Source: a virus. From it: a stretch of DNA of 44,237 nucleotides. The notes under the pieces are model-generated. The model was given only the letters and a program-made list of their open reading frames with translations, made no database searches and had not been told where the DNA came from. The DNA lies in the IMG/VR virus record IMGVR_UViG_3300009009_000579, positions 1 through 44,237 of that record; one strand, 5' to 3'. Both the position numbers and the translations under genes were made by a program. Shown here one piece after another: positions 13,471-43,304 of this stretch (its first letter is position 1; the number at the start of each line of letters is the position of its first letter).

Positions 13471-13578
13471 ATGAATAACAATATCAATCAAGCGGGAACT
13501 CTAATATTTATAGCTGTTATGCTGTGGTTAGTTACTCTTTTACTACCGCCGGATGCTTTTCACTTCCCTTGGTGGTAA
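13471..13578 (+). CDS. Small membrane peptide, 35 aa, convergent with the tape measure gene
   Basis: ATG 13471 lies 6 nt after AGGAGG (13459-13464). The product starts MNNNINQAG, has one hydrophobic segment (TLIFIAVMLWLVTLLLPP, about residues 10-27) and ends FHFPWW. It overlaps the 3' end of the tape measure gene by 36 nt on the opposite strand. Translation is supported by the ribosome binding site only. Function unknown. Confidence 0.5.
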   Translation: MNNNINQAGTLIFIAVMLWLVTLLLPPDAFHFPWW

Positions 13579-16500
13579 TCTCTCAGAAGCCTTGGGCGCC
13601 CCAATTTTATTGGTAGCAACCAAGGTTTTTATTTGCACATCTAATTGCCGTTCTAACAAATTTTCTACCTTATTCAAGTTTAGGTTATCGCCCGGCTGAT
13701 TGACTTTCATAGGTTCAACCTTAATGCCATATTTACGTAGGACCTCAGAAGATTTAGGATCTACAATAATCTCCCCTTTATGAATTTCGGCTACTTGGTT
13801 TTCTGCAACATAGCTAGTTCCTACCTCATAACTCCCCATTGCCTTTAAGCGCTTTTCAAGCTCGGCTATATATACGTTATTCTTTTCACGAGCTTCGACA
13901 GACCCTCCGAATAACGTTTTTCCATAACGCTGGGCACGGTCTAACTCATTCTTTAAAGCAGCAACATCAGTTTGGATACTCTTTGGTATCTGTACTTGTG
14001 AACTCATAACTGCGGGTTGTACCGGGGTAACCTTAGGAGCTACCGCTGTAGAGGTTTGTTGTATTGATGCAACCTTAGTGACTGCCGCTATAGAGGTTTG
14101 TTGTATTGATGCAACCTTAGTGACTGCTTCTGTAGGGATTGTTGCATTGACATTTATGATAGGTGATTTATCTGCAATAACCTTTAACAACGTTGTCATT
14201 TCACGCAATTGAGTTAATTGAGATAAATCCGCCGGCGTTTCTCTCAATATAGCGTTCTCCACAACTCTTCCAAAATTATCAGGTAATAAATTAATTGATT
14301 GAGTTGTCTCTTTGGCAGTAGTTATAAGACTCTCAAAATAACCCTGATTTAGCAACAATATATTGGTGTTATCGATTTGAGCTTGCAATTTCAACAACTC
14401 TAAATCGTAAACCTTTTTACTCTCTCCCAATAATAAATTTAACTCCCTGTCCGTTTCTAACTTTAAAACACTCTCTTGTCTTTCTTGGTTTTCTCTGGTC
14501 TGATCCCGTAAAGTTATTAGTTCAGTTTTTAAGATTTCATTAAGCCTAGCTTCCTCAACTTTCAAGCTCTCATCTAAGGCGGCTAAGGCTGCAACCAAGG
14601 CATCTTTTTCAGTTTGAACCTCCAACTTAACCTCATCCATTTTGACGCCCATATGAGCCGTGCCGTTAATTAATTCACGCAAAGAAATTAACTGGGCAGC
14701 GTAAGCTTCATTTGCTTCCATTTTTTTAGCTTCTGCTAAAGTCACATCCCCGCTTAATTTAGTAACATTGTCCGCACTAGCTTGAACATTTTCTAATTCT
14801 CTTAAGCGGGCAATATTTGAATGAAACGCCTCTATGTACTTATCTCCGCTGGCATAACCCTCCCGCATCAACCCATTATACTCTTGAATAAAGTCTATCT
14901 CCTTAGAATAGTCTTTGTTAGCACGGGCTGTTTGAATTTCACTCTTAATATAAGCTTCACGCTCTCCAAAACTTAAAGCCGCGTCTTCACTCATTGTCAT
15001 GTTGTGAATTGTCTCTTTGGCTTTAGCCGCTATATCCTCAAGCATTTGTTTGTAATCGTCAAGGGCTTGTTGCTTAGCTGATAACTCCTCATCAATCATC
15101 GCTAATTTCTCTTCATGTTCTTTCTGAAGAATGTTATAGTACTCACTATAATTTTCCTCTATGATGTTGGAATCCGATATATTTTGAATTGAACTCTTCA
15201 AAGCTTGATAAGCAGTATCTTTTGAAGGTTGCTGATTTCTCAATTCCATAATCTGTCTTGTCAAATCCTTGGTCTTTCCCGCAAACGAATCTAAGATAGA
15301 CCGAATGTTTTCCATTTCTTGTTCTAATATGGCGATTTTAGAGTCACTTGCGTTTTGCAAAGTTTCCTTTTCTTTTTCAAGTCCCTTTTGGAAGTCTGCA
15401 AGATTATCATCACGAATTTTCTTTAGATTATCCACAGGTGACAATACAGGATCTAACTCGTTAATTGCGTTATTTATGGAATCCATAACCTCTTTGTTTT
15501 TATTAACTAAGTCAGTATAGGCATCCATTAAGGATTGAGCTTTATCTTCAATCGCCTTAAACGGATTACTATCTGGAGTATTGTTCAAGGTTTTCAAATG
15601 TCCCTCTATTACGCCCCGTGTATTCTCATATGAACTCGTCAATTCATCAATTTTTGCTTTAAGTTTCTCTAAATCTAATTTAATATTCTCTAAGAATCGT
15701 ATGGGGTTTTCTAGATAGCTAGGCTTGACTTCTTCTTTGGTAACGTTGGTTATTGAACTCCGTAAATCATTTATTTCTTGGGTTAATCTTTCAATTTCGC
15801 CAACTCTCTCGGACAAATCTATTTTCTTTGGCGCTGTGTAACTTTCAATAGTAGATATTAAGGTAGTGTTTTCCTCTGCTAATTCTACCCATGGCTTAAG
15901 CAACTCTTCAACGCCTAACTTTATCTGAGTACTATCCAGCCCATCTTTACTCATAGAATTGATAATTCCATTCAAATCGAAATTATTCTTACTTGTGTAG
16001 CTTTTATACATCGTGATATCAGGGGTTTGAGGTTTGATTAAAGCGTCTGTAACAAGCCCATTCATTTCTTCAAACCAACTTTTTGTCGATTCAATGGATG
16101 ACTTAACAGTGTCTAAACTCACGTTGTATTTTTCGCTTAAATTAACAATATCCGAATATTCAAGAAACTTTATGTCTTTTAGTTTGCTTGGGTCAATTAA
16201 CTCTTCTGAAGTTTTGAGAGATTTCAACCACTCAACGTGCCCTTTCTTAACTTCCAATATTTGTTGCCATTCTTGGAATTCTTCATTAGATGGCAGCGCC
16301 CCGTTAATCCAAGAAAGGAAAGTATTTTTAAAGCCTATGCCTATCAATTTTGGGTCGGTTGTGTCAAATTTAACCTCGTCGTTTATAAACCCTGCAAAGG
16401 AGTCTGTCACTGCACTTTTTATTTCATTGAATCTGTCTTTAGTGCGTGAAATTTCAGTCTGAACTTCCTCAATTGTTAAGTTTAACGTCTCGGCTAAATG

Positions 16501-19500: not shown

Positions 19501-22500
19501 TTCTTCTTTAGCCCGTGTTGCAGCGTCCTCTCTAGCTTGTTGGTCAGCTTCAGCCTGTTGTTGTCTCGCATCTTCAGCAGCTTCTCTAGCCTCTTCAGCC
19601 CGTTGTGTATCAGCCTCTGCCATATCAGATTGGTTAGACGCGGCTTGAGCTTCATCTAATTGTTTACGAGTACGGGCATCTATTCCCACACTTGTAGCTA
19701 CGGGGCGTAAATCATCCTTAATTGATGACACAGTTGTCGCAAATTCTAACATTTGCTTTTGAACTTCAGGGTCGTTTAAAACTTGTTGCGTTATACTAAT
19801 TACCCCTTTAACTTGGTCTACAATTGATGCCAGAGAATTAGCAGCGGCTAAACCACCTGTTGTTAAAGCAGTCCCAGCAACCTGTCCACCCATCATCATA
19901 TCGATATTACTACTCATCAACGGACTAATGAAATTATCTTGTATTATAGTAGATATTTGTTCAACACCTGCATTGAATATAGCCTGATTCATTTGTTGCG
20001 TTATAGCCTCTGGACCTGATTCTTCCCAGTTTGTTAACATCGCACCCCAATCTAAATTAGAAAGTGAAGATTGCATATTTGCAGTTAACTTTTGAGAAGT
20101 GGTACCATATTCACTTAAGGCATTAGTCAACCCTGGAGTCAAGGAGGACAATTCTTTGAATTCTAAAGATAATTGATTCCAGTCAGACAGAGAATCTATA
20201 CTGAAGTCTTGTCCTGTAAATGCTTCTGCTAAATTTTCATATTGTGTTAAAATTGAAGACGATGTTAAATTATCCTTAACTCCTAATTCACTCAAGTTTG
20301 CATAAAATTGTTCAACATGATCGGCGGCGTTTATTAGCGAGTTTTGTCCGGTCTCATCTAAAGAGTTAAACACGTCTATAAACCCTGCCTTTGTTAAAGG
20401 TAACGATTGACCCAATGAAGAGAATAAGTCACTCAAATCTTGGAACGGTTTAATATTGTCGGTTGTTTTGAATACATCAATGAACTTATTTAATTTTTCA
20501 GTCCCAAAATTATCTAGATCCCCGGTTTCAAAATCACGGTTGAAATTGGTAGATTGATTGATCTCTTTCAACATATTCATTGATTCAAAATACTGTTTTA
20601 ATTCTGTACCTGCGTTAATAAGATTTTCTCTACCATCTGTAATTGTCTCAAAGAAACGACTCACATCCCCTATGCTCTTTGGTAACTCTTCACCAGCATC
20701 TTCAAAAATATCAGCTACAACTTTGTTGCTACGTGTATAATTTACATCCCCAGATTTACCCACAAGCTCTAAAAAATCAGTTAAGTTTTGTCCAGTGTCA
20801 ATATCATCTGGATTTATGTCTCCCATAGTTAACCCAATCTTTTGATAAAATTTACCTAAGTCCACAAGTCCTTTCAATTTCTCTTGCATGTCCTCTGCAG
20901 TCATCATTTCATCGTCAATCAAAGTTAGAGAATCGGTTATTGTTTTGTCGATTATTTTCTTTAACCCTGCGTCCATTATGTCGTATTCCCCACTTGTTAG
21001 GGATTCTGTTATAATAGCACGGCTAGTTTCTAATTGTTTAACAATAATCTCGGCAGTCTCTTGTCCTATATCACTATAACCAGCAGTTTTCATGGCTGCA
21101 ATTACCGAGTCCACATTAACCTCAGTTAAACCACCCAAGGCAGAGGAAAACTTCTGAACTAAGGCTTCGCCACGGGGCATCTTGGACAAGGCACCATCCC
21201 AAACTGACATTCTATTTTTGATTCCTAAAGTACCATCATTTAACTGTTGAGCAATGACGTTATATGTGTCAACCATACCGTTAGTCATATTCTCACCAGC
21301 AACAGTCAAGTTATTGAAGTAATAGCTCAAAGCTGTAGCTTTAGATAATTCCTCCATTTTGTTATTCCAGGCGTCCTGCTCACTACCACGATCATACATA
21401 GATGAGATTGTGAACGTATGCCCTTTTAACTTCTCATTAGCCTCACTGTAGCCTCCAATTAAAGATGAACCGAACTCCTCAATAGATTTTTTGAGAGCCT
21501 CAAATGACTTGTTAAGCTCTCTCATTTGCGCCCCAGATAACTCTTCATATTCCTCTTTTGTCTTTGTGCCTCCCAGTCCTTTTTTGCTCATTCGATTTAC
21601 TGTCCGAGCAGTAACACCTTCGTCTGAAATTGTTTTCTCAGTCCATGAGGCTTCCTTCTCATATTTGGCTCCTAATTTTCCTAATAACGCATTACCTAAA
21701 ATTTGAATTGCAGGACCCGCTATTTCTTTAATTCCAGGCGGTAACATTGTTGCAGCAGCAGTACTTAAACCTGCAACAGCAATACCTCCAAATTTTTGAG
21801 TATTACTGGCTCCAGATTGAGTGATAGATGATAATGCACCCAATGCAAAGTTTTGCCAAGCTCTTTTAACGTCTTCACCTCTTTGTAAGGATGCTGCTAT
21901 TTCAGCATCTTGAGCTTGCTTAGATAATTCAGAATGTGTCAATGTACTTTCCAAGAAATTAGCATTCGCCTCACTGTGTGCCTCTAACACCGATTCTAAA
22001 GCCTTACCTTGATCCTGACCTACCTTATACAAAACCTCGTCTGATTTTTTCTTTTGGTCTTCTATCAGTTTCAACTGGTCATTCATTAAACTAGCTTGTT
22101 GCTCACCAGCCTCTCCTATACCTTTCATTTGTTCTTTGAACGGTGTTAAATCAACGTTTTTAAATGCGTCTATTGTGGGATCATTTACAGCTTTAACCAT
22201 TGGATTGACAACAAACAACTTATTCTTTTCTTGTGCTTTCATCCAATCTTCTAAATCTGTTTTAATAACTCCCTTCTTAGAAGAAGAAGACTCCGTAACC
22301 ATCAATTTATTTGTAACTGCATCTTTAATGACCATGACAATGTGGTCAATATCTTTATCAATGTTGCTCCCTGCACGGGCACGACCCCGGCTATAAGCTC
22401 TATCACCATTGTCAATTCCTATAATGTCGCCTTCTTTAAGTGTATTAGTTAAACTAGCATGTTGTCCCACATCGCTAATTTTAACATTACCTGTTGCGTC

Positions 22501-25500
22501 AGCAATATTTTGAATGATACCATGAGCTGAATCTTTTACTGCTTTAAAATCCTCAGGTCCAAACACCGTTTTCCCTGCTTGTGAATTAATAGTCTCAAAG
22601 CTCTTTTGTGCCAGCAAAGATACCCAACCACTGCAATCAATTTTCTTAACTTCTAATAGCTTCTCCATACTTTCGGGTTTGCTATAATTAGAAATAGCAT
22701 TCTTACCTGCGTTGATAAAATAACCAACTTTAGCAGACATCGCTTTATCGACTTCTCCACTTAAGTTGTCTAACAATGCTGTTTTGGTATTGGTTACCAC
22801 AACAGGAGCTGCCGTTTGTATTGCCCCAACTGATTCTTTTAAGCCTGCCTCGTATTTCTTGAATTCGATAGGAACGGGCAATTTTTCCCATTTACCGCCC
22901 CATGATTTTAACCAAGCGTCAGATAAAGCTCTAAGGTCACTCCCATACCCCAACTTATTTTGTTTCAAATATGCGGCGGGTATGTTTTTTATTAGATATT
23001 CTTTGGGCACTTTTCCTGTTCTACCCATTAATAAATTTACAATATTTTTAAATCCTCCAGGACCTTGGTTGTGCATTCCCCAAGCCATTTGACCTTCTTT
23101 AATCCCCAAATTTCTAGCTTCAGACATCGTCTTTGTGCCAACTGTTTTTTGATTTTTGAAGTAATATTTCATGGCAGCTTCTGCACTTTTGTAAGGATCA
23201 TACCGCCCACCGGCAAAGTCTCTCATGCCTACTTCTTCCCAAGCTGGTTTTCCCATTTGATACACACCATAATAACTACCCTTGCCACCCCCACTTCGTG
23301 CTTTTTTATTAAAACTAGATTCCAAAGATGCCTTTCTTGCAAATTCAATAGGATTGATTCCATAAGCCAATGAAACTTTTTCTATAGCTTTAATTACTTC
23401 AGGATCTATTCCTGATTTATAAACCACCTTACCTGTAATCCCAGCAACAGGTCCTCCTTGTGGTGTAAATTCACTATCACTTGATTCAGAACTTGATCCA
23501 GAGTAAGATGATGAAGAATTAGCTACATTAATAACCGCGTTTTGTATGTCAAAAGTTTTTGGTTTATTTCTTTCAATCTCTTCTAAAGTTTTTATCATTT
23601 CATCTAAAGGATCAACTATATCAGCCGGTTTCATTTCTTCTAAAGGAGCTAAATATTTCTCTGTGTTTTTCAAAGGCTCCATTATAGCCTTATCGATTAA
23701 GTCCTTCACACCGCCAGTAGCTGCCCCAAAAGCATTTTTGATTGATGTTACATCTGGGTTAGCTTGTAATAATTTGGTAGCCTCGGCAATAACATCTTCT
23801 TGACCATTACCGAATTCTTTAAACCGCTTTTCGATTTCTGTGATGTTAAATTTAACCTTTTCCAAAGTCTTTGTGTTCAACGGGTTACCTTCAAATATCG
23901 CAACGTTTTTAAGTCTCTCTTCTATTACCTTTTTAGCACCTTCACTTGACGTTTCCAGGGCTTTACTTATAGATGTTAAGTCTGGATAAGCTGACATAAT
24001 GTCATTTACTTCTTTTGTCAAGGCATCACTACCTTTAGCAACGTTTGTAAGTTCCGTTTTTGTTTTCTCAATTGGGTCTAATAAATTCGATTTCAAAACG
24101 TCTTGTAATTCTTTTGATGCTTTTGGTAAATTGTCAGTCATTGTTTTCATTGTGCCGTTTTCACTCAAAAACTTATTAGCTTCCTCAACAAGAGTCTTAT
24201 TATCACCAGCTACCTTTTGAATAATTTGATTCACAACCCCGGTGTTTACTTTTAAAGTCTCAATATCCTTAGGCTTGAGTAATGACGTGAATTCTTTAGT
24301 ATCAAATATCTTGTTAAAATCAATATCCATTTTGACTTGACCGGTTTCAATATTACCCAACTTAGATATATTGTTTTCTAATACTGACTTCATGTGTGCT
24401 GTTTGATTCTTTAAAGTTTCTAGCATAGCCGCTTGTTGGTCTTTTAGGGGATTTATGAAACTATCCTCCAATCCTTTATTACCTGCCTTTAAAGCTGCAT
24501 TACCGGCGCTTGCAATCTGTTCTCGTTCTTTAGTGAAACTGGTTAGAATTTTCTCACTACCTTGGTCACTAACTCCCTTCAAAGTAAGAAGTTGAGCATT
24601 GATAAACTCGGTACTTTTTTCATTCAACGTTGTCAAATAATTCTGAAAATTAACTCGGTTTGTTTCAATCTCATTGGTAATTTCTTGTCCTCCGGACACA
24701 TCGTAAATTACAGGTTTCAATTGTTTCATCAAACCTTCTAACAAAAATGCGTTAAATTGTTTTTTGGTAAAATCATGAATAACTTTAACAGCGTCATCAA
24801 AATTACCTGTGTCTAATAAGGTAGAGAAAAATGAAGAAACCGCTTCTGTAACTGAGTCAATCCAAGATCTGAACGATTCAATTCTACTTCCTAAGGAATT
24901 ATCTAACTCTGTGTTAAATTCTGCCCACGATTTAGTTAACTCATTTAACTTATTAAGGTCTTCACTTATGCTAGGGGCATGTTTTTTCTTGTTTTCATCT
25001 AATTTTTCAAATTCGTCTGTGTACTCTTTCATCTTATTTCTAACATCTTTCACTGTTGCTGATTTACGCTCCGGTCTATCATCTGTTATATCCTTAACCG
25101 TTTTGAATATGTTAAGAGTATCCACTTCATTTACACCGGCTTTTAAGTCTTTCAACCCTTTGACAACATTCTTAACCTCGTCCCCATAAACTCGTGGGGC
25201 TTCCGGTTTGAATATTTCTGTGTTAAGTCTACCCATTCTAGACTTAAGCTGTTCAAATACATTCCCTATGTCTTCATCATTTTTACCTACATTCTTCAAT
25301 TCTCGGATTAAATCAATCGTTTGTGTGATCTTGTCAACATCACCATCAACCTCAATTTTATAACTGAAAACGCGATCACTAAGCTCAAATATATCTTCTT
25401 CTTTAGTCATCCGTTTATTAGTAGCCTTCAAATGATCCTTCATTTTCTTGTATTCTTCAGATTGCCAACGCAACTGGTCATCCCACTTTTTAGACTCAAA

Positions 25501-28500: not shown

Positions 28501-31500
28501 GATCATATAGGTTAAGGTAACGTCAGTTTCTATTTGATTGACTTCACTAGCAGTCAACTGAGACCCTGCTTTTTTGATTGCCAATGAAACATCACTATTG
28601 ATAGACTTAAGGATATCCTCTACTTTCTTTTTTGTATCTCCTAAAAGAGTGTCAGCACTGAAATCACCATCTTTTAATGCTTCGTTAAATGCCTTTATGT
28701 CTATATCCGGTTGAATAGCATACTTAACTTTCATACCTTCATTAGCTAACTTACCTGCGACATACCCCTCATCTTTACTGAATAGTCTTGTAAAGAAATT
28801 ACCACTATCCTTAGTATTCACTTTAGTGTTGTGCTTTTGTAATTCAGAAGTTGCATTTGTAATATCCAAGAGTTTTGTCTTTCTCAGAAAATTATCCGTT
28901 ATTCTAACAGACGTACTTAGATTGTTTAAATCGAGCTTAGCATGATCCTTTTGAATGACCGTTTCTAATTTTCCCAACGTGGCTGCAGATATACGATCAT
29001 ACTCGTCCAACAAAGACGTCATACTCAAATTGCCAACTTTTATAGCCTCTTGTTTAAGCACTCCCAACAGAGCTTGGTAACGTTTAGGTTCCTCAGTTTT
29101 AAGTTTGTCAATGTCAATATCAAAATCAATAGCAACCCCCACACTAGCCCCAGTCTTTGCGTATCGTGTATTAAGTTGGTTTTGAGTTTGGGTCATAGAG
29201 TCTCTAACTTGCTTAAACTCGCTTTCCTTACCTAAAATTTTACTTACAAGATTGGGATCTAACTTACTAATGTAGTTGTTAACCTCTGCTTTTAAGTTAG
29301 ACTCTACAGCCTTCTCTTTTTTGAACTCGGTCGCAAGGTTAATGAACTCTTTAGCATCATCATTACTTTTGCTGATTTCTTCTAAGAAAAAATCTTTAAA
29401 CTGTAAGACAGCTTTAGTTCTCAACATGCTCAAATTTTTATTAACATCTTCTTGTTTTAAATCCAGCCCTTCCCCACTCATGGGACTTTTCATTCTCTTT
29501 AATTGAGTATTTAGTAAATGGTCGGCACTCTTAAACTTCTCAAACATCAATGTGTAAAATTCATCATTACTTATATCTAAAGATTTAACAAACCCTTTGA
29601 TTAAATTGTTGTTGACTTCGTAAGCAATTTTAGGATTTAAATCTAGACCAACTCCTTTTGCTTGCTTAGTCACCAAATCCCGCTCGTCCTTTAAAGATCT
29701 AATTTGTCGTGTTGTGTCTATGCTTGCTTTGGTGTTTAAATACCCTGCTTTAATAAAATCCTCTAACTTGGTCAATTGGTCTGTTAGTTTAGTATATTGC
29801 TCAGTATATTCAACTCTTTTTATCCCTTGGACTTCTTCCTGTTTAGAAGCTTTCATTTTATTGTTGAGTTGGTATATGTCCTCAAATTGGTTTCTAGATT
29901 TTACAGGAGGTTCAACACTCACATCTACAGTTTTAACAAGTTGAGGTTCAACCAAAATTTCATAGCGCTTTTTTAGCATTTCTTTTTTAAGAATTGTGTC
30001 GTCTGCTATTAAGGTCACTGTTTGTGGAATGGGCTCCTCAAAATAAGACATGACGGCATTATAACCGCTGTATTCAAGGATTAAATTTTTTAAAGCTTCG
30101 CCATATTTTCCTAAACTTTCTGTTAATTGGTCAAACGACATATCCTCAATAACTTTAATAAAACTGTAAAATGCGGAGGCAACAGCTAAAACCAAAGTGG
30201 GTAATGTGGTTAACATGGTAAATAATTTGTTTCCCTTTTGAAAACCTACCATGGTTTTGTGCAAGAGAATAACAGCGGCAGTTAAAGCAGCCAGCAACAT
30301 TAACACATTGGGAGTGTCTTTTAAGAATATTCCTGTAATTGCCCCTACAATCAAAAATATCATTTTGTATTTACCAAACATGACAGAGAGGTACCCACTT
30401 TGGGCAATGGTTAGTAAAGATAAACCCATGATCACTAACGATAAATTGTCTACCTGTTTGGCAAAATTAACAATTAAAGGGGACATAACAGAAAACAGAG
30501 CGGCTATGATTCCCAAAGGATTGCTCACTTTAAAAAAAGCCATTCCCACTACAGTGATAACTGACACTATATCCAAGAAACCTATATTTAAACTTTTGAT
30601 TTTGTTGCTGATTGTGTCAAATAATTGCCCTACTCTTTCGAGCATAGTAACGTCTAAATTTTCTAAATCTACAGTTACAGTTTCCTGTAAATTATAAGAA
30701 ACGTATTTGTTAACTTCCTCTATAATTTGTGCACTATTCTTTTTATCTTTGAATTGTTGGTAATTCCTTAGTCCCATGTCCACGACACTATTGCCAGGGG
30801 CTGCACTTACAAATCCCAATTCAGAAGCATGGGCTTTATTCATTGTAGACTCTAAAGATAACCATCCCGTCATTACAGCTGCAATCCCCAATGTCCATTT
30901 AGCAAACGGGTTTAACGCTCCTAAACTCACAAAGGAAGATTTAACACTTCCCATTATTTGCACTATATAGGTTAAGGCAGAAATCAATGGGGTGAATTTC
31001 AATCCCACGGTCGAAAACGTCATGCTCATTATGAGACCCAATACTTTTAGCACAGCTGTTAATTGAGATATTACTCCCATTAAACTTTTAGAATGTTGGG
31101 TGATTAGAACAATAGATTTCAAGAAATTCAAATGAATAGCATTGCGTATAATCAAGAACACTTGCGCTAAACTTTTACCTTGTCTTATCAGTGAATACGT
31201 TTGAAATGAAATTGTAGCAAAGAATAACATTAGTACCGCGATAGGCAGCGATTTCTCAAAACTGAGAACGGCTGTAACAAGCAATCCAATAGCAGACACT
31301 AAGGCTAATAAAGGCAACATTGTTGATAACATCCCTATTTTCAGTAATGCTAGGGCGGCGGTTAAAAATCCAATGTAAGTTAAAGATTGTGACCACGAAT
31401 TATTCAAAAGGATGATGACGTTCACAACTGCCAACACTGGACTTATGAATGCTGATAACACGATCAAAGCTAACGTCATACTGGGAATTACAGCGTTCAT

Positions 31501-34500
31501 AATGGTTGACGCCAACGCCTTTAAAATCTCAACAATGGGTCCCATCATATACATCACAGCCCCCATGATTGCGATAGAAACCATTTGACTTTTTACCATT
31601 CCCAAAATACCACTGGTTGCTGTAACAACCGATTGTCCAAATCCTTTAACTACAGCTCCGACTTGTGCAACAGCCCCTGAAAACACCCCAGTTGTTTTCA
31701 CACTGTTTCCTATTGTGGAGTTGTATCTTTCTTGGACTTTGGAGTTTTCTTCTAATATTTTTCGCTCTTCTAACATAGACGCTAATTTAGCTTGTTGTGC
31801 CGCTATACTAGCCTTACCCTCATTGGTCTTTGGATCACTCACGTCTTTAGTAGCTGTTAAAACGCTGGTTTGCAATTTAATATCTAAAGATTTTTGCAAT
31901 AACTCCGCTTTGTAGTCTCTATAAAAATTAGCATTAAACTTTCCTGCTGTATCTCTAACAGAAGTCAGCGATTCTCCCGTAAGTGTTTTGAATGCATCCC
32001 TGATTATTTTAGGGTCTGTTAACAGTTTTATATCTCTACCGAATTCTTTGGACAACCCCTTCATTATTTTGTCTACATTCTTTGGGTTGTCTGCCATAAC
32101 TTTGTCATAAACGTTTTGTGGAATTTTATAAAATTCCTTAAGAGAATTAGCTATTTTATTAACATCTTTCTCCGGGTATTGCCATATAGGTTTCCCTTGT
32201 CTGTCAAGACCTACATGAGGATGGATAGACCCTATTAGAGACTGAATTTTAGTCATGTCACCCTTGTAATTCAAAAGGTCTTTTGTTAATGCTGCCAATT
32301 TACTATTATCAGGTCCTTTTAAAAATTCTCCTGCTTTAGCCTGCCCGCCAATAATATCCCTGTAACTGCCGGTCGAGGGCATAAGGATTGAACGTTGTGT
32401 CTCAAACGATTTATTAACCTTCTCAATATTAGCTGCACTGAATGAAGCTAATATTTTTTGACCCATTTCCCGTCGGTTATCTTCTAATGTCTTAGCTAAT
32501 AACGTATTTCCTGATTTATTAGCTGCGTTAATTTTGCTGGTAATATCTTTGTAATATGCCTCCATTCCCAAAGTTTTTATAGAAACTGAAGGGATGCTAG
32601 AACTGAGAGCAGTTTTTAGCCCTATTGCACCTTTGTGGGTTTTTAGCAACGCCTGTCCTAACATTGCCAACGCTGCTATTAAAATGGTGATTGAGAGCGT
32701 AAAATTGTTATCTACAAATGAAGCAATGCCCTCTATTACATTGAATATGCTATTAAAAAAGCTTATTAAGGGACCGATGTAAGTGCTCACCTTTGCTACA
32801 ATGGCTGCTAGGGAATCCAACAAAAACACAATGATATTTGAAACGTCAGACAACCGCTTATGGAAAATTTCTACCACCTCAGCAGGTAACAAATTAGTAT
32901 AAAAATCTTCAAAACTATCCGCTTTCTGATATAGGTCATTCATCCATAACGCTACGTATGTTAATACGGGAACGATTAAGGATTTTAAACCAAACCCAAA
33001 CTTCATCAACGCGGCAATGTACAACATTAATGACGTAAAGGCATTATTATCTATAAACTCCAGTTTACCTAAATCTTTTAAAACAAACAGCCCTACCAAA
33101 AGGGTTTTGTACATGTTTGCAAATGTTAACACCGGCTTTAAGAAACTAACAAAACGCCCCAATAACGTTATGGCAGGGGGTGTTACAGTTGTCATTTTGA
33201 TGAATATCCCAGCCACTATTAAGATGTATGCCCTGAAGTTCGTAAATCCTTCATAAAACCAAATCTGAAAATCTCTCAAGCCCGTGGTCAAACCACTAAT
33301 ACCTTGGTTTATTCTGTAGATAGCTCCCACGGTTTGACCTAATAACATAGCTGGAGCTGATAGTGCTTTTCCACTAAGGGTAAAGAGTGTTTTTAATAAC
33401 GCAGTTGTGGCAATCAATGAATTGCTTCCTGTCGATAACACAGTGTTTAACTCCCTAAACATGTTCATTATCACAGAGCCTAAAGCCTCAAGGGTATATA
33501 CATCTTCGCCCATTGAGCTCAAATAACTAATGTTGGTTACCAACCCTCCCACGAGCAAAGAAGCGCCCCGAACATAACCTCCAAAATGTAACATTGCCAC
33601 CCCGAGCAACGCCATTTTAGCAGGCAATCCTTCAAGAGCGTCACCATAATCCAATATACTAGATACAAAAAACATAGATATGCCGGTTGATGAAAAGGAT
33701 GAGCTTATAATAAACAACCGTGTTAATGACGCTGCCAGCTCGTCAGATACTTTAATTACAAATAAAGATAGTCCTTTAGTATCTAACGCTTCGATACTTT
33801 TAATTAAACTGACGGGACCCCCTAACGCATTTAGCACGTCTATTGCTAATTTTTGAAAATTAGTTGATACAGACTCGACATCTGCCTTGAGACCTTCCTT
33901 ATCTTCTTTTAACATTAGGGTTGTATACAGCCCCCCGCGCAACAATGCTCTGGTATTGCTAAACACTACTCCTAAAAATTTCAGTTGTAGTGTTAAACTT
34001 TTTAAATCCTCTTCCGGAAACCACTTATCCACTGTAATAGGAGGATCTTTTAAGTTTGTCGAATATACCCCATGTAAAGATTTAATACTTAAGTCTACAG
34101 TAGACAAAATAAACGCTGTCTGTTTCGTGGCTTTGGACAAATTGTTAAATAACAACGTGTATAACGTCAACTTTTTTAAACTTTCCACAGGGACCGTCAC
34201 ATTAGGATCGTAAGTTATAGCCCCTTGAACAGTATGTAGCTTTTTAAACTCAGAAAACAAAACGTTAATACCATCTGTGACCAATTTAGTATATGATAAC
34301 ACTAGGTCTACCACAAACTTGTAAAACATCTCAATTTCAACAAATAGCGACAAAACGGTAGTTAAATTAAGCAGTTGTATAACTGTCGCAATCATCGCCC
34401 CGTAAGATAATATAGTATGAAGAGGTAGTGCGATTTTCGATAATGCTGTGAAACTACCTTGAATTTTAGTAATAACCGCAACAATATGTTGCCCCGACAA

Positions 34501-36777
34501 TTTAATTTTAAAAATCATCATGGTCAAATTATCATAAAACTGTTGATTTGCCTCCCTATTATGGTTTAACGCTTGATTATAAGAATTAGTTTGAGTTATA
34601 ACAGCTGCTATAATTGAAGGAAGCCGCTCTGCAAATACAGTCCCTAACTTAACATCAAATACCATCAACATTGAAGCAAATAATGAAGTTGCCCCTAACT
34701 TTGCTAAATTAAAAGCTTTTATTACGGGCATAAACCCGGCTAACCATGTAGATATAATAGCAACATCAAATGTTGATTTAAATTCCCCAAATTCAATTCC
34801 CAACAGTAAGAAATCAGTTATTAATGAGGATAATATAACACGTAGCAATATGAAATTTGTAAATATTTCATTCAGTGCCACTACTTCTTGTTTTGAATTA
34901 CGCATAAAAACGATAGGGGTTGCGTTAATCTTTTTGGCATTCTCTAAGATGTTGCCTTGAGCTAGTATCACTTTCAAAAAAGGACCTACATAATTGTCTT
35001 CACTAAGATAGTTATTAAGTCTCATTAAGGTAAAAAACATTTTGATCTTTGACAAAACAACCATCATCAAAGCTGCTAACTTTGACATTTGCACACCCAT
35101 CAACACTAAGAGTGAAACAGATGTTTTTTGGGAATGTATGATTTGGAGCCAGATTGTAACAATCGCAACTTTTTCATAAAATAGAAACATCGTTGACGAC
35201 AAATCTAAGACACTCAAATGTAACAAATTTAATTGATGAAACAAATAAACTATGTTGTTATACATAGCATTGTTTAATACCAAAATTTTTGCAGTTGCAC
35301 CCGGTATTGTGTAATAGAATAACACCAATTTACCGATAGTTGTTAAAGTGTTACCTACCCCAATTCCCAACTTTCTAAAATAGGTTTCAATACCGTCAGT
35401 TCGTCTGTAAAGTAAGTCCACCTTTTGCAATGCTGTAACATACGCTTGTAAATGGGTATTCATAGTTGAGGCATTAATAACCCAATTATCGATTAACGTC
35501 ATAGTCAGAAATCTGTTAATTCCAGTTTTGAAAATCTCTAAAGAATTATTCAATGACTCCAAACTTGATTTAACCCTATTTAAAGTTCTAGCCATCAAAA
35601 ACGTAGCATATATTGTATAGGTTCCTATGTTTTTCAACAACGTAACTATCATCAACCCTACTTGTCTAGCATCATTAGTAACCCCTCTCAAAATGATGGA
35701 AATAATCCCATATTGGTGTTTAATAGGGTTTATAAATCCTGCAAAAAAAATCTTTGCGTCATTTTGAAGTCTGAGCATTGTTTTTTCACTAGCCGACAGA
35801 TTAACCCCGATGGGATTTTCTTCAAAATAATTTTCAATTACATCATTCAAGGCTTTGAGAGTATTCACATCAATCGGCATAACTCTTGGTAATAATCTGA
35901 TTCCATAATCTTTAATATTAGTTTTGAATTGTTGGTATTCATCCCGCTTTGTACTTTTAGATTCCCGACTCCGTATATAGTCTACCTTATCCTCTAATTC
36001 ATCCCAGTCAATAGGGTTAAAAAAACTTTTCTTAGTTGTCGATCGGTACTCTTCAATTAATTCCTTCAACCCTCCTTGGTAGTCATTAACAGATTTACCC
36101 GCCTTAAGCATATGATCCGTGAGACCCTCTACTTCATTATTGATTTTCTTTAAATCCGCGGATTGTTCTCTCAAATTAGTTAAATACGCCGTGATTAAGT
36201 CAGCATCAAAACCCAACGTATATGCCTTCATGAAATGTTCTTTGTTACGAACGTTTTCATCTTTTAAAATTAACATCAATAGTCTAAATTCTTTGATGTG
36301 CTCAGATGCAACGTTTATACTCCTCACTATGGAGTCATCTAAGTATGATGAGTTTTTTACGGTTTCTCTAATAGAATACCCAAAAGTCTTACTAAATGTA
36401 CTCAACTCTTTAATATATTCCCCTATATCCCCAACACTATCCTCAACTCTTAAATCGGTTGTTAACTCTTTGATGATGTCCGCATACGACATGCCTGTTT
36501 TGGACTTAATCTGGTCTACTAAATCTACAATAACACTACGTTCTTTTTGGTATATTTTCGCAAGTTTGTCAATTTCTTTGTGTATATCAAAAAATCCCAA
36601 AGCCTCTACCGAGGGTGACATCAATTGGGTTAAAGATTTTTTAGCATTTTTCAACGCTGTTAAATCAAAATCAAATTTTATTTTAAACTCATTATCAAAG
36701 ATAGACGACAAAGACTTGCCGATTTTATCAAGCCCTCGCTCCTCAAAATTAAGCCTTACACTTTCGGTTATTAACAT
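13543..36777 (-). CDS. Giant tail tape measure protein, 7744 aa, with SLT and NlpC/P60 domains
   Basis: ATG 36777 has AGGAGG 8 nt upstream; one open frame runs 23.2 kb to TAG at 13543. The N-terminus is helical. Residues about 370-2230 hold at least 25 hydrophobic segments in two blocks, split by a soluble stretch (about 1380-1700). Then come long charged helical regions with degenerate repeats. An SLT transglycosylase domain lies at about 4465-4600 (KASLESSF with the catalytic Glu near 4484, YYGVYQM, MHNQGPGGF). An NlpC/P60 peptidase-like domain lies at about 4700-4830 (KIDCSGWVSLL with Cys near 4715, DIDHIVMVIKD with His near 4810). An Ala/Glu-rich helix is near 5720-5775. The end (VGTSYVAENQVAEIHKGEII) has the GTxYV...A.IHKGE motif common at tape measure C-termini. 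It sets tail length and probably opens the cell wall. It is the last gene of the late operon. Confidence 0.9.
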   Translation of the reverse strand: MLITESVRLNFEERGLDKIGKSLSSIFDNEFKIKFDFDLTALKNAKKSLTQLMSPSVEALGFFDIHKEIDKLAKIYQKERSVIVDLVDQIKSKTGMSYADIIKELTTDLRVEDSVGDIGEYIKELSTFSKTFGYSIRETVKNSSYLDDSIVRSINVASEHIKEFRLLMLILKDENVRNKEHFMKAYTLGFDADLITAYLTNLREQSADLKKINNEVEGLTDHMLKAGKSVNDYQGGLKELIEEYRSTTKKSFFNPIDWDELEDKVDYIRSRESKSTKRDEYQQFKTNIKDYGIRLLPRVMPIDVNTLKALNDVIENYFEENPIGVNLSASEKTMLRLQNDAKIFFAGFINPIKHQYGIISIILRGVTNDARQVGLMIVTLLKNIGTYTIYATFLMARTLNRVKSSLESLNNSLEIFKTGINRFLTMTLIDNWVINASTMNTHLQAYVTALQKVDLLYRRTDGIETYFRKLGIGVGNTLTTIGKLVLFYYTIPGATAKILVLNNAMYNNIVYLFHQLNLLHLSVLDLSSTMFLFYEKVAIVTIWLQIIHSQKTSVSLLVLMGVQMSKLAALMMVVLSKIKMFFTLMRLNNYLSEDNYVGPFLKVILAQGNILENAKKINATPIVFMRNSKQEVVALNEIFTNFILLRVILSSLITDFLLLGIEFGEFKSTFDVAIISTWLAGFMPVIKAFNLAKLGATSLFASMLMVFDVKLGTVFAERLPSIIAAVITQTNSYNQALNHNREANQQFYDNLTMMIFKIKLSGQHIVAVITKIQGSFTALSKIALPLHTILSYGAMIATVIQLLNLTTVLSLFVEIEMFYKFVVDLVLSYTKLVTDGINVLFSEFKKLHTVQGAITYDPNVTVPVESLKKLTLYTLLFNNLSKATKQTAFILSTVDLSIKSLHGVYSTNLKDPPITVDKWFPEEDLKSLTLQLKFLGVVFSNTRALLRGGLYTTLMLKEDKEGLKADVESVSTNFQKLAIDVLNALGGPVSLIKSIEALDTKGLSLFVIKVSDELAASLTRLFIISSSFSSTGISMFFVSSILDYGDALEGLPAKMALLGVAMLHFGGYVRGASLLVGGLVTNISYLSSMGEDVYTLEALGSVIMNMFRELNTVLSTGSNSLIATTALLKTLFTLSGKALSAPAMLLGQTVGAIYRINQGISGLTTGLRDFQIWFYEGFTNFRAYILIVAGIFIKMTTVTPPAITLLGRFVSFLKPVLTFANMYKTLLVGLFVLKDLGKLEFIDNNAFTSLMLYIAALMKFGFGLKSLIVPVLTYVALWMNDLYQKADSFEDFYTNLLPAEVVEIFHKRLSDVSNIIVFLLDSLAAIVAKVSTYIGPLISFFNSIFNVIEGIASFVDNNFTLSITILIAALAMLGQALLKTHKGAIGLKTALSSSIPSVSIKTLGMEAYYKDITSKINAANKSGNTLLAKTLEDNRREMGQKILASFSAANIEKVNKSFETQRSILMPSTGSYRDIIGGQAKAGEFLKGPDNSKLAALTKDLLNYKGDMTKIQSLIGSIHPHVGLDRQGKPIWQYPEKDVNKIANSLKEFYKIPQNVYDKVMADNPKNVDKIMKGLSKEFGRDIKLLTDPKIIRDAFKTLTGESLTSVRDTAGKFNANFYRDYKAELLQKSLDIKLQTSVLTATKDVSDPKTNEGKASIAAQQAKLASMLEERKILEENSKVQERYNSTIGNSVKTTGVFSGAVAQVGAVVKGFGQSVVTATSGILGMVKSQMVSIAIMGAVMYMMGPIVEILKALASTIMNAVIPSMTLALIVLSAFISPVLAVVNVIILLNNSWSQSLTYIGFLTAALALLKIGMLSTMLPLLALVSAIGLLVTAVLSFEKSLPIAVLMLFFATISFQTYSLIRQGKSLAQVFLIIRNAIHLNFLKSIVLITQHSKSLMGVISQLTAVLKVLGLIMSMTFSTVGLKFTPLISALTYIVQIMGSVKSSFVSLGALNPFAKWTLGIAAVMTGWLSLESTMNKAHASELGFVSAAPGNSVVDMGLRNYQQFKDKKNSAQIIEEVNKYVSYNLQETVTVDLENLDVTMLERVGQLFDTISNKIKSLNIGFLDIVSVITVVGMAFFKVSNPLGIIAALFSVMSPLIVNFAKQVDNLSLVIMGLSLLTIAQSGYLSVMFGKYKMIFLIVGAITGIFLKDTPNVLMLLAALTAAVILLHKTMVGFQKGNKLFTMLTTLPTLVLAVASAFYSFIKVIEDMSFDQLTESLGKYGEALKNLILEYSGYNAVMSYFEEPIPQTVTLIADDTILKKEMLKKRYEILVEPQLVKTVDVSVEPPVKSRNQFEDIYQLNNKMKASKQEEVQGIKRVEYTEQYTKLTDQLTKLEDFIKAGYLNTKASIDTTRQIRSLKDERDLVTKQAKGVGLDLNPKIAYEVNNNLIKGFVKSLDISNDEFYTLMFEKFKSADHLLNTQLKRMKSPMSGEGLDLKQEDVNKNLSMLRTKAVLQFKDFFLEEISKSNDDAKEFINLATEFKKEKAVESNLKAEVNNYISKLDPNLVSKILGKESEFKQVRDSMTQTQNQLNTRYAKTGASVGVAIDFDIDIDKLKTEEPKRYQALLGVLKQEAIKVGNLSMTSLLDEYDRISAATLGKLETVIQKDHAKLDLNNLSTSVRITDNFLRKTKLLDITNATSELQKHNTKVNTKDSGNFFTRLFSKDEGYVAGKLANEGMKVKYAIQPDIDIKAFNEALKDGDFSADTLLGDTKKKVEDILKSINSDVSLAIKKAGSQLTASEVNQIETDVTLTYMIKTGLRFDDKVYKDLNDAADAITKQENLINFEIDAILKKTASMGRKTQSQTAKLTELQSRKTVEEVVGFLGIEDGMKKLESATEFSLGVMGDIQSKIASSFSSAKDLIKIDPTASLKIAKMGVDNVAKMTMMLDDEILNLKEVIEYKGVQYSIEEQMELKQLETKRALLASQQVIGSTLIKDSEKELEKLAEVVKSNPITKFLNNWVGKRETGGVHAEMLGKIKSVKEFFKLEITSLSENLVLRPTFKVDPSSLTNIKDVYKVYEKTQQIGIEHIQSKVMEGLTEQEKFLAEKMKDMVVRTEKEGEELRNSLIKAFSLGSMMTLKNKTKNMSRERVESDNDKLNIANQLTNKDIFSDEERESLKYDLSSAMMIESAADAYKTYISNESNINDLIFKRLKFSREEVDLIKQKIESQGKLKELYELTNKFKHSEYDYIGDESVKASFLYKDTIGDSGLSTDEAAGLENTIIQNKLTTLRNAIKSEVFDKMSELDKLKLMLTNFGKDANEIQEIVSSYQADLREAYQTKLKNFDIFEGVGNELTGLVKSGVVDVESYERTKELEHSNVLYKTMTSSLTGLIKFEANSLNLSKEKTEELIQTAKLREDELSFLKSVVDLENKQSTTTSLGRTVSQEYLKPLLNSPKLSVDDNARNVIYQEMLNEETDKLTAVQLGREGALLELVAGRLNLSKEEIRAIQTKKEETEQLIMLSEAENSYAKELKFNLAEVGSSLTKILTLKGGSVGMIAELNDVGFDKAELEARLSTKAGELNYQLDLVKATKEEREAILQNYKARTKDVDLLKQKAAFQEELVKPIDTVGTNLNQGFKAGLISQGELGALAVSREEEKGAGILRDMALNRELLTASQQQALDVAEKKTKILEKEKTRLEEINELSSKRIELTEYLNNQTISLAKNETNFIDQFISERGNLKNSLEDMKQNLSGKSRDGEKTSSQLFGPNVDLSKLNEAQKQSAEILTRQYNTLTQITAQYEKRKSLLTELKDTEKFESKKWDDQLRWQSEEYKKMKDHLKATNKRMTKEEDIFELSDRVFSYKIEVDGDVDKITQTIDLIRELKNVGKNDEDIGNVFEQLKSRMGRLNTEIFKPEAPRVYGDEVKNVVKGLKDLKAGVNEVDTLNIFKTVKDITDDRPERKSATVKDVRNKMKEYTDEFEKLDENKKKHAPSISEDLNKLNELTKSWAEFNTELDNSLGSRIESFRSWIDSVTEAVSSFFSTLLDTGNFDDAVKVIHDFTKKQFNAFLLEGLMKQLKPVIYDVSGGQEITNEIETNRVNFQNYLTTLNEKSTEFINAQLLTLKGVSDQGSEKILTSFTKEREQIASAGNAALKAGNKGLEDSFINPLKDQQAAMLETLKNQTAHMKSVLENNISKLGNIETGQVKMDIDFNKIFDTKEFTSLLKPKDIETLKVNTGVVNQIIQKVAGDNKTLVEEANKFLSENGTMKTMTDNLPKASKELQDVLKSNLLDPIEKTKTELTNVAKGSDALTKEVNDIMSAYPDLTSISKALETSSEGAKKVIEERLKNVAIFEGNPLNTKTLEKVKFNITEIEKRFKEFGNGQEDVIAEATKLLQANPDVTSIKNAFGAATGGVKDLIDKAIMEPLKNTEKYLAPLEEMKPADIVDPLDEMIKTLEEIERNKPKTFDIQNAVINVANSSSSYSGSSSESSDSEFTPQGGPVAGITGKVVYKSGIDPEVIKAIEKVSLAYGINPIEFARKASLESSFNKKARSGGGKGSYYGVYQMGKPAWEEVGMRDFAGGRYDPYKSAEAAMKYYFKNQKTVGTKTMSEARNLGIKEGQMAWGMHNQGPGGFKNIVNLLMGRTGKVPKEYLIKNIPAAYLKQNKLGYGSDLRALSDAWLKSWGGKWEKLPVPIEFKKYEAGLKESVGAIQTAAPVVVTNTKTALLDNLSGEVDKAMSAKVGYFINAGKNAISNYSKPESMEKLLEVKKIDCSGWVSLLAQKSFETINSQAGKTVFGPEDFKAVKDSAHGIIQNIADATGNVKISDVGQHASLTNTLKEGDIIGIDNGDRAYSRGRARAGSNIDKDIDHIVMVIKDAVTNKLMVTESSSSKKGVIKTDLEDWMKAQEKNKLFVVNPMVKAVNDPTIDAFKNVDLTPFKEQMKGIGEAGEQQASLMNDQLKLIEDQKKKSDEVLYKVGQDQGKALESVLEAHSEANANFLESTLTHSELSKQAQDAEIAASLQRGEDVKRAWQNFALGALSSITQSGASNTQKFGGIAVAGLSTAAATMLPPGIKEIAGPAIQILGNALLGKLGAKYEKEASWTEKTISDEGVTARTVNRMSKKGLGGTKTKEEYEELSGAQMRELNKSFEALKKSIEEFGSSLIGGYSEANEKLKGHTFTISSMYDRGSEQDAWNNKMEELSKATALSYYFNNLTVAGENMTNGMVDTYNVIAQQLNDGTLGIKNRMSVWDGALSKMPRGEALVQKFSSALGGLTEVNVDSVIAAMKTAGYSDIGQETAEIIVKQLETSRAIITESLTSGEYDIMDAGLKKIIDKTITDSLTLIDDEMMTAEDMQEKLKGLVDLGKFYQKIGLTMGDINPDDIDTGQNLTDFLELVGKSGDVNYTRSNKVVADIFEDAGEELPKSIGDVSRFFETITDGRENLINAGTELKQYFESMNMLKEINQSTNFNRDFETGDLDNFGTEKLNKFIDVFKTTDNIKPFQDLSDLFSSLGQSLPLTKAGFIDVFNSLDETGQNSLINAADHVEQFYANLSELGVKDNLTSSSILTQYENLAEAFTGQDFSIDSLSDWNQLSLEFKELSSLTPGLTNALSEYGTTSQKLTANMQSSLSNLDWGAMLTNWEESGPEAITQQMNQAIFNAGVEQISTIIQDNFISPLMSSNIDMMMGGQVAGTALTTGGLAAANSLASIVDQVKGVISITQQVLNDPEVQKQMLEFATTVSSIKDDLRPVATSVGIDARTRKQLDEAQAASNQSDMAEADTQRAEEAREAAEDARQQQAEADQQAREDAATRAKEEADRLKSDHEAFINAFKEITNAGVNQQRKFWEQLRPTIDLSAGLTPLVNTWSSNFKKLQEAARKEEGNNTTIQGRDLSPLQKEAEVIKARRVRLESQNASINETIEKARATGGMTQVTKTPYGTEHIEQIKEFSISDYNSQFAMIDENNKKIKELNLHQSVVLAGFGEFWNEFSVAMPEAVDMSTFEDWLKANKNVVAKVDEIEQVDVSVSLEEFNTQLGDFIKQMKEIDASLEKARVDIGDSKTGVLKGSQWTESKSLTELESFLANDALNLTNLMYEGIIPYEDVSSFISDASNKIMGVNQEWLAYNKSKVMDVSPLITFMRDKTLDNYAVLGTFKDSLQEVDKLLSDSVTEEVPYKELFEFTTNKTIDNFEAFMLASKNNMELLTNNPLADIFAEVKEPVVLPVDLLNKWSNAKTYETFSELLKVYNNDVASLTEVLKNTDLSKVSIQPKKEEIDPLKNLTSSQFLNLDALATLKDFYNSDIERFNAAVDDKNAWIKDTQKVIDDSKLGTPKFSLTLGLPQLQSMLTDWSLVEWEQFKIDSNYSGELSELVGVVKETYTQLNSVFENRDVKKLESDMETYYYQIKDNLSFDNITDYIESSSFVDKGKLSDLLGGKLLEDFKEPIELSLLKIQDELRKTEPPVIDDALKELGLNWEATADNLNILLAKGLDPTTVINVVKDYNSELEDLQNKLDNLKKPKPIEVSNLLFDFDYTSLERLNTITLEQIKYVSDTYGISLENITTELENAKSSLEEVASTQIASFQDLIDLRKSMKDHGKISLDETWDMRGGFTVLKDALSLSELGLIDLANSLEKTPVEVYDFIQDKAKVALERQKQFDDFLTTSIEKLKGDKPPEVETYFRNEGITSVDKMRNRLESLKGTDVIEKFGNANLDDLSSATDTYLTWLLDTTKSLDEAVKEFKGDDAFNTYTLLDKDALLAKATEFRNNLPTQSEIDKLTEAFSFNVEFENWKKDMLSTGDDNLVIQSVRDFGDLSIERIHHLAETLNLTIEEVQTEISRTKDRFNEIKSAVTDSFAGFINDEVKFDTTDPKLIGIGFKNTFLSWINGALPSNEEFQEWQQILEVKKGHVEWLKSLKTSEELIDPSKLKDIKFLEYSDIVNLSEKYNVSLDTVKSSIESTKSWFEEMNGLVTDALIKPQTPDITMYKSYTSKNNFDLNGIINSMSKDGLDSTQIKLGVEELLKPWVELAEENTTLISTIESYTAPKKIDLSERVGEIERLTQEINDLRSSITNVTKEEVKPSYLENPIRFLENIKLDLEKLKAKIDELTSSYENTRGVIEGHLKTLNNTPDSNPFKAIEDKAQSLMDAYTDLVNKNKEVMDSINNAINELDPVLSPVDNLKKIRDDNLADFQKGLEKEKETLQNASDSKIAILEQEMENIRSILDSFAGKTKDLTRQIMELRNQQPSKDTAYQALKSSIQNISDSNIIEENYSEYYNILQKEHEEKLAMIDEELSAKQQALDDYKQMLEDIAAKAKETIHNMTMSEDAALSFGEREAYIKSEIQTARANKDYSKEIDFIQEYNGLMREGYASGDKYIEAFHSNIARLRELENVQASADNVTKLSGDVTLAEAKKMEANEAYAAQLISLRELINGTAHMGVKMDEVKLEVQTEKDALVAALAALDESLKVEEARLNEILKTELITLRDQTRENQERQESVLKLETDRELNLLLGESKKVYDLELLKLQAQIDNTNILLLNQGYFESLITTAKETTQSINLLPDNFGRVVENAILRETPADLSQLTQLREMTTLLKVIADKSPIINVNATIPTEAVTKVASIQQTSIAAVTKVASIQQTSTAVAPKVTPVQPAVMSSQVQIPKSIQTDVAALKNELDRAQRYGKTLFGGSVEAREKNNVYIAELEKRLKAMGSYEVGTSYVAENQVAEIHKGEIIVDPKSSEVLRKYGIKVEPMKVNQPGDNLNLNKVENLLERQLDVQIKTLVATNKIGAPKASERLPPREVKSIRR
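14045..14128 (-). repeat. Tandem 42-bp repeat, two copies
   Basis: Units 14045-14086 and 14087-14128 are nearly identical and code for two copies of a 14-residue unit (AVTKVASIQQTS plus two residues) near the C-terminus of the tape measure protein, at about residues 7550-7577. The flanking sequence is rich in Thr, Val, Pro and Gln and looks like a linker. Confidence 0.85.
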
Positions 36778-36818: not shown

Positions 36819-37298
36819 TTATACATAGTTTTTAGCATCAACCGACAATTCTAGTTTGTTGATGTTGTCTCCTGTCACTGTCAATTTACGAGACTTTATG
36901 ACACCGTAGAGATAAGGGGATACAAATATTCGCTTTCCTACATTCAATTCAGGGACGTTCATGATAACAACATCCACATCCAAAATAATCACGGTCATCT
37001 CATTTTTCCAGGCTAGAATTCGGTAATCATACATTGTCGATTCAGACCAGTCCTGGTGTAAATTGAAATCAGGTTCGTAATATCCCACATAAGGCAACTC
37101 AAGCATGTATTCTACTGAAAACATCGGACCCGTGCTCTCTAAATCATAACCCCCTAATTGAGACTCATTAACATTCAAAAATTTAGCAGTCTTGCTCTTT
37201 TCCATAGGAAACATTGAAAATGGAAAAAAGAACAATGGGACCGTATAATTACCGGGTCTTGGTTTATCTGCTATCGCATAAATTTTACCGTTTATCAT
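36819..37298 (-). CDS. Tail-region protein, 159 aa, unknown
   Basis: ATG 37298 overlaps the stop of the 843-residue gene by 4 nt, and the gene ends 41 nt before the tape measure gene. The protein is soluble with no signal peptide; the C-terminal half is beta-rich (MTVIILDVDVVIMNVPEL, RKLTVTGDNINKLELSV). Position between a large virion protein and the tape measure suggests a tail component. No family is recognised. Confidence 0.6.
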   Translation of the reverse strand: MINGKIYAIADKPRPGNYTVPLFFFPFSMFPMEKSKTAKFLNVNESQLGGYDLESTGPMFSVEYMLELPYVGYYEPDFNLHQDWSESTMYDYRILAWKNEMTVIILDVDVVIMNVPELNVGKRIFVSPYLYGVIKSRKLTVTGDNINKLELSVDAKNYV

Positions 37299-39826: not shown

Positions 39827-40068
39827 GGTTTTGCAATCTCCCCTATGACAGATTCCGGATGAAGTTTATCCACTAAAATATTCCCCCCTTTATCTCCTAA
39901 CAAAAAAACAACAACTAATACTAAACCATACCTTTTGAATGTAGTTAACTCCTCTTTTAAACTCCTGATTTCATAAGTCATTCCCTCGAGTTTACTTCTA
40001 ATGTCCCTATGATCCTGAAGAAGACTATCCACTGTATCTGACAATTCTTTAACTGTTAAGTTTCCCAT
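39823..40068 (-). CDS. XhlA-like holin or holin accessory protein, 81 aa
   Basis: The first 45 residues form a charged coiled coil (LSDTVDSLLQDH, IRSLKEELTTFKR), followed by one short hydrophobic segment (YGLVLVVVFLLG, about 47-58) and a polar tail. This is the layout of XhlA-type haemolysin/holin proteins and of some spanin-like proteins. It lies directly after the endolysin gene, overlapping it by 13 nt, which supports a lysis role. Only one membrane segment is present, so it may need a partner. Confidence 0.55.
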   Translation of the reverse strand: MGNLTVKELSDTVDSLLQDHRDIRSKLEGMTYEIRSLKEELTTFKRYGLVLVVVFLLGDKGGNILVDKLHPESVIGEIAKP

Positions 40069-40637
40069 GGCACTTCCTTAGTTATATAATAACGTGGTTG
40101 TAGATATTGGGCGTCATATTCTCTCACGTCTAAATGGACCCAAGTCGGGGATAACTCTCTAGGCTCTACAGATTTCATATTGCGCTTTCCCCACCCTATT
40201 TGACAATTACACTTAGAAATAATAGTCTCCCTATTTTTAGCGACAAAATCAACAGCGTTACCCATATGATTTGTTGTGCGACGTCCGTGTTTTTTGTTGT
40301 TTAATTTACATCTATAACCCGACGTGATTATAACATCCCCCACATAAAACTGAATTGCTTTTAAAGTGTAAATCAAAACCTCGTGAATACCCTTACCATC
40401 AAACCCTCCACACGAACAGTTAGGGCATTTTAACTTCTCAAAATCAACGGGATATTTTGTTATGAACTCACACATCGCGGCTTTAGTCTTAGGTCCCGCA
40501 ACACCATCAGGATGTTCATCTCCCATGTAATCATGTTGAAACTGTTTGATTTGTTTTATTGTTTTCGGTCCCATAACACCATCCCAGGTTGTCCCGCCAA
40601 ACCCTGCTAAAATTATTTGTATTCTTTCCACATTCAT
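40056..40637 (-). CDS. Endolysin: PG-binding domain plus M15 peptidase
   Basis: The ATG at 40637 is chosen over an in-frame GTG at 40646, because GAGGAG ends right before that GTG and is 8 nt from the ATG; this gives 193 residues. Residues about 1-60 form a PG_binding_1 domain (WDGVMGPKTIKQIKQFQ, DGVAGPKTKAAM). Residues about 80-185 are a peptidase M15 domain: TSGYRC (105-110), NHMGNAVDF with zinc ligands His124 and Asp130, and WVHLD with His168. Such enzymes cut the peptide stem of peptidoglycan (L-Ala-D-Glu or D-Ala-D-Ala peptidases). Lacking a signal peptide, it needs a holin; the next gene is a candidate. Confidence 0.88.
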   Translation of the reverse strand: MNVERIQIILAGFGGTTWDGVMGPKTIKQIKQFQHDYMGDEHPDGVAGPKTKAAMCEFITKYPVDFEKLKCPNCSCGGFDGKGIHEVLIYTLKAIQFYVGDVIITSGYRCKLNNKKHGRRTTNHMGNAVDFVAKNRETIISKCNCQIGWGKRNMKSVEPRELSPTWVHLDVREYDAQYLQPRYYITKEVPWET

Positions 40638-40661
40638 GAATTCCACTCCTCTGGAAAATTA

Positions 40662-43291: not shown

Positions 43292-43304
43292 CAAAGTCTT
43301 ATGG

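Follow-up and report, generated by a model that had tools for sequence, protein, structure and literature searches.

The window analysed here, a whole stretch of 44,237 bp, is an IMG/VR record of an uncultured bacterial virus assembled as a metagenomic contig. Its minus strand carries an open reading frame of about 23 kb in which 7744 codons follow one another without a stop (Table 1). Across the same interval the other five frames contain 228-910 stops each and are never open for more than 220 codons, so the long frame is not a product of chance. The ATG is preceded by a strong ribosome-binding site, the Shine-Dalgarno sequence AAGGAGG, and codon position 1 has the highest G+C along the entire frame. 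A second record of the same virus, IMGVR_UViG_3300027762_000294 (75,468 bp), carries the entire gene, which makes up 31% of that contig, with zero differences, bearing in mind that the two records may share reads; 2 mismatches between window and record were found, at 11094 and 11098, both in the terminase gene. Given the open frame with its Shine-Dalgarno sequence and ATG, the stop-filled other frames and the identical second record, the giant gene is very probably one true gene. The initial annotation had described an uninterrupted 23.2-kb frame and had asked whether an assembly error might have joined several genes; the frame stands, and both the second record and the uniform coding frame speak against such an error.

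Table 1. Features of the giant gene and its surroundings (window positions)
Feature	Coordinates	Strand	Basis
Giant gene, 7744 aa, very likely encoding a tape measure protein	13543..36777	-	ATG start, single open frame
Hydrophobic block, aa 556-2203, 20 predicted membrane segments	30169..35112	-	hydropathy scan
SLT lytic transglycosylase domain, aa 4465-4548, ESSF and GVYQM motifs	23134..23385	-	PF01464 2.6e-6, exceeds curated cutoff
Possible cysteine peptidase/amidase-like segment, aa 4710-4860 (DCSGW, DHIVM)	22198..22650	-	motifs; profiles not significant
C-terminal tape-measure motif GTSYVAENQVAEIHKGEIIV, within aa 7645-7680	13738..13845	-	motif comparison
159-aa gene directly upstream of giant gene	36819..37298	-	no family match
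843-aa gene, possibly tail tip or baseplate	37295..39826	-	tentative
81-aa protein, one hydrophobic segment, holin-like	39823..40068	-	read from sequence
Endolysin, PG_binding_1 and peptidase M15	40056..40646	-	profile matches
Putative tail assembly chaperone, short form, 187 aa	41343..41906	-	upstream of giant gene, frameshift arrangement
Putative -1 frame extension of chaperone, open through slippery site to stop at 40708	40708..41385	-	frame reading
Slippery heptamer A_AAA_AAA, C next, 2 codons before frame-0 stop	41352..41358	-	sequence
Group II intron, ~908 nt, 3' end of putative tail-tube gene	43207..44114	-	RF00029 1.2e-8; intron-minus allele in L014
Terminase large subunit	10507..11841	+	phrog_2 2.7e-29; tblastn

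The encoded protein begins with a charged stretch (residues 1-250), followed by the hydrophobic block, whose 20 predicted membrane segments compare with 2-4 in the checked tape measures of 876-1915 aa, and by a region that is charged in composition and predicted to be helical (residues 2250-4400). Behind it lies the SLT domain, which the initial annotation had recognised and in which both characteristic motifs are kept. The NlpC/P60 domain that it had also listed finds no profile match in the giant protein, where only DCSGW (residue 4714) and DHIVM (residue 4811), resembling papain-like peptidases, are present. In the acidic stretch of residues 5200-7500 most blocks show helical periodicity, and over the protein as a whole the hydrophobic period predicted for most blocks is 3.4-3.65 residues. 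Some 75-95 residues before the C-terminus stands GTSYVAENQVAEIHKGEIIV, with GTSYV...AEIHKGE at residues 7651-7669 and HKGE at 7666. A 42-bp tandem repeat of 2.9 copies (VTKVASIQQTS-type) is located near the end of the gene, at window positions 14029-14150 (-). A fusion of RNA polymerase and tape measure of the kind known from phage P23-45 was rejected for this protein, in which the signature D-x-D-G-D is absent; DFDID, DGDVD and DKDID are present, none with G at the fourth position. Structure predictions for the tail-tube candidate and for the SLT/peptidase stretch had mean pLDDT of 27 and 40, too low for use, and PDB sequence searches gave nothing useful.

The giant gene closes a structural operon, which on the 75,468-bp contig begins with portal-like and scaffold-like genes, the gene of a P22-type major capsid protein (phrog_283, 1.3e-34), two genes of unknown function and genes for two paralogues of 831 and 502 aa, and continues with a 254-aa gene, a 197-aa gene, a chaperone-like pair, a lysin, the 81-aa holin-like gene and the 843-aa and 159-aa genes. 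The best relatives of the capsid protein include the siphophages R5C, Pan1 and MAR10, and siphophages predominate among its relatives; tape measures are annotated in all three, a tail tube also in Pan1 and a major tail protein also in R5C. The 502- and 831-aa paralogues match phrog_290 (6e-5 and 1e-4), to which the R5C, Pan1 and MAR10 proteins at the tail-tube position belong (E below 1e-65), and are putative tail-tube proteins; they were matched neither by our own profile of R5C-type tubes nor in an hhalign comparison. The 197-aa protein encoded between the tail-tube and chaperone genes (window 41899-42492, -) has a ParB-like ADGHHR motif, as read from its sequence. The group II intron, with GTGTG at its 5' end, sits in the putative tail-tube gene two codons ahead of the stop and shortly follows an ATG of the next gene. 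Its position in L007 is 3575-4482, and the strain contig L014 (97-99% identical), which is without exactly that stretch (junction 6916/6917), is a natural intron-minus allele.

At the end of the 187-aa chaperone-like frame the codons CAA AAA AAA CTG hold the heptamer A_AAA_AAA, inside a 14-codon overlap, and past this site the -1 frame is open for about 210 codons. The lambda G/GT chaperones are likewise encoded by a slippery overlap with a -1 extension. Homology of the pair to known chaperones was not found. By comparison, canonical slippery heptamers number 12 in the 7745 codons of the giant gene. Since the hairpin predicted 3' of the site is not unusual (z -1.25) and a TTG start is possible for the second frame, the pair would be expressed by frameshifting only putatively.

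Elsewhere in the genome, a family B DNA polymerase of 586 aa (window 8697-10457, +; phrog_1252) has 20-26% identity to known phages, and an L,D-transpeptidase (YkuD, 4.7e-23) adjoins an SLT-domain protein (L006 15621-16232 and 16229-17341, +) outside the lysis module. Both ends of the 75,468-bp contig carry an exact 7,167-bp inverted repeat (L006 1-7167, L007 12303-19469), and L012, a contig of another metagenome, terminates 123 bp inside it; the repeat represents either the long inverted terminal repeats of a linear genome or an assembly path via a shared repeat. The portal-like 345-aa frame beside it need not be broken by the repeat, because a ribosome-binding site and an ATG lie just beyond the repeat boundary.

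We consider it very likely that the giant protein serves as tape measure in a phage with a long tail, most probably a siphophage. A long helical chain with membrane segments is a tape-measure trait, predicted for this protein as well, and two features that are frequent, if not universal, in tape measures are present: a peptidoglycan-hydrolysing domain, in the form of the SLT domain, and an H/S-x-GE-x-V/I-V/I motif near the C-terminus. In the phage sequences compared here, the C-terminal motif was found 25-130 residues from the end in 12 of the 21 tape-measure homologues versus 4 of the 934 other frames, and it is the best direct evidence for the identity. When a 43-aa motif query was searched against 50,697 phage records, the best match (E 0.2) was the tape measure of Thiohalocapsa phage LS06-2018-MD03, and two of the three distinct matched sequences were tape measures, the other being that of Leptolyngbya phage Lsp-JY19 (E 0.8); the third was an RNA phage polymerase (E 1, under two accessions). 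On their own these matches have E values of 0.2-2, a point against the identification.

The identification is indirect, since the profile libraries hold no tape-measure match for the protein: no part of it was labelled as tape measure by Pfam, PHROGs or NCBIfam, whereas for two known tape measures PHROGs gave 21 and 47 matches, and tblastn of its body against phages gave zero matches. The tape measures form a class by function, and its members diverge widely; a match to a profile is therefore evidence by custom and not a definition, and the missing family profile lowers the claim without excluding it. The place of the gene also counts against a tape measure, given that it comes last in the operon, after the lysis genes, and the usual place is between the chaperone and the distal tail gene. 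The identity first proposed from the sequence thus draws its support from the motif, the SLT domain, the membrane segments, the helical periodicity and the gene context, for a protein whose body has neither homologue nor profile match.

By the known tape-measure mechanism, we postulate that the short and -1 frameshift forms of the chaperone would coat the extended, mostly helical chain, along which tail-tube subunits would polymerise from the tip and halt at the chain end, so that chain length would set tail length. At infection the giant protein would leave the tube, its membrane-segment block (residues 556-2203) would insert into the inner membrane, and the SLT domain (residues 4465-4548), perhaps together with the Cys/His segment behind it, would open the peptidoglycan.

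The ratio of chain to tail length is available from several phages. Hotorobo has a tape measure of 3327 aa and a tail of 540 nm, or 0.162 nm/residue (PMC4982279), P23-45 has 5002 aa and a tail of >800 nm, at least 0.16 nm/residue (PMC10770324, PMC9022992), and a 114-aa deletion in the TM4 tape measure made the tail about 20 nm shorter, 0.175 nm/residue (PMC1796659). At 0.15-0.175 nm/residue, 7744 residues would give 1162-1355 nm (1.16-1.36 micrometres). A tail longer than 1 micrometre is therefore a fair extrapolation from literature ratios, and we regard it as somewhat more probable than not. Whether it would also exceed all other known virus tails, at about 1.2-1.35 micrometres, with the longest known tape measure setting it in a genome of about 75 kb of which the gene takes about 31%, is in our judgement evenly balanced. 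The longest tails in the literature searched are those of P74-26/P23-45 (5,002 residues, >800 nm to nearly 1 micrometre), and no longer tail turned up in these searches, for which subscription papers lay mostly out of reach. The expectation that this tail would be among the longest known agrees with that literature, in which the largest characterised tape measure has 5,002 residues (P23-45) and the largest protein of the huge-phage survey 7,694 aa.

It is possible, though the less favoured outcome, that the tape measure is cut by a protease or that its membrane and enzyme blocks are not extended in the tube, in which case the tail would stay below 1 micrometre (about 0.85-0.99). About 1650 residues are hydrophobic and about 450 enzyme-like, so that only about 5650 residues might count, giving 848-989 nm, and the P23-45 protein likewise contains a folded RNA polymerase domain (PMC10770324). 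However, the known ratios of 0.16-0.175 nm/residue already count whole chains (P23-45, Hotorobo), and the TM4 deletion, which took out a lytic motif with its 114 residues, still cost about 20 nm of tail (PMC1796659).

Much less probable is that the gene encodes a giant ejection protein carried inside the virion of a short-tailed phage, which would be injected and form a conduit and would measure no tail. The lytic and membrane parts would fit such a virion protein. P22-type capsid proteins occur in podophages too. Large virion proteins are known in N4-like and crAss-like phages (PMC10770324). Yet the C-terminal tape-measure motif, the chaperone-like slippery overlap, the putative tail proteins of phrog_290 in the operon and the predominance of siphophages among the capsid relatives all argue for a tape measure instead. 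An assembly artefact fusing several genes is hardly credible even for a metagenomic contig with no isolate behind it, since the second IMG/VR record is identical over the gene and 7744 codons keep a uniform coding frame with one minor internal similarity.

As a tape measure, the protein would be long even against its nearest detectable kin. IMG/VR searches with the terminase, the polymerase and three tape-measure segments returned the same virus only, and no relatives were found in species genomes. In the capsid alignment of 80 loci, a comparably long frame is absent from the DNA examined, where the maximum is 2,321 codons (open-ended); among distant capsid relatives no complete frame at their loci exceeds about 1,230 codons, and identified tape measures, where listed, have 800-1234 aa, so the lengthening is large. 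Internal repeats were rejected as its source: besides the 42-bp repeat of 2.9 copies only one weak 87-residue similarity was detected, and therefore the gene has not grown by recent (tandem) duplication. A tail of about 1.2 micrometres would test whether the ruler relation, which is established for tails of about 100-900 nm, holds beyond 1 micrometre, and it raises the question of what keeps a chain of about 0.85 megadalton stretched out, coated and threaded while the tail is assembled. According to a citation in PMC11500664, microscopy of Baltic sediment has revealed environmental siphoviruses whose tails are extremely long, and this genome is a candidate type for such particles.

Among known systems, the closest in kind is gp96 of Thermus phage P23-45/P74-26 (5,002 aa), a giant siphophage tape measure that combines membrane parts with parts active on peptidoglycan and belongs to a very long tail (PMC10770324, PMC10034513); the protein described here is 1.5 times longer, sequence similarity between the two was not found, and it has an SLT domain where P23-45 has an N-terminal RNA polymerase (DFDGD) and a metallopeptidase. 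The Gordonia phages Hotorobo, Monty and Woes, siphophages whose genomes are similar in size, combine long tape measures with tails of about 540 nm (PMC4982279), but their tape measure of 3,327 aa takes 13% of coding capacity, compared with 31% of the 75-kb contig for the gene here. The motif GT-YV-IH-GE-IV stands about equally far from the C-terminus in two other tape measures, that of Thiohalocapsa phage LS06-2018-MD03 (1646 aa) and that of Leptolyngbya phage Lsp-JY19 (1915 aa), although these are 4-5 times shorter and otherwise without detectable similarity. The Nanhaivirus/Mardecavirus siphophages R5C, Pan1 and MAR10 share the P22-type capsid protein (24-26% identity) and a putative tail protein of phrog_290, whereas their tape measures have 876-1018 aa, their gene order is conventional and the remaining structural genes show no detectable kinship. 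Similar in size is the largest predicted huge-phage protein (7,694 aa, PMC7162821), some such proteins being tentatively structural, but it belongs to huge-phage genomes and not to a contig of about 75 kb. What is new is thus a very likely tape measure of record length, an extreme case of a known kind of protein, with the length of its tail as a prediction.
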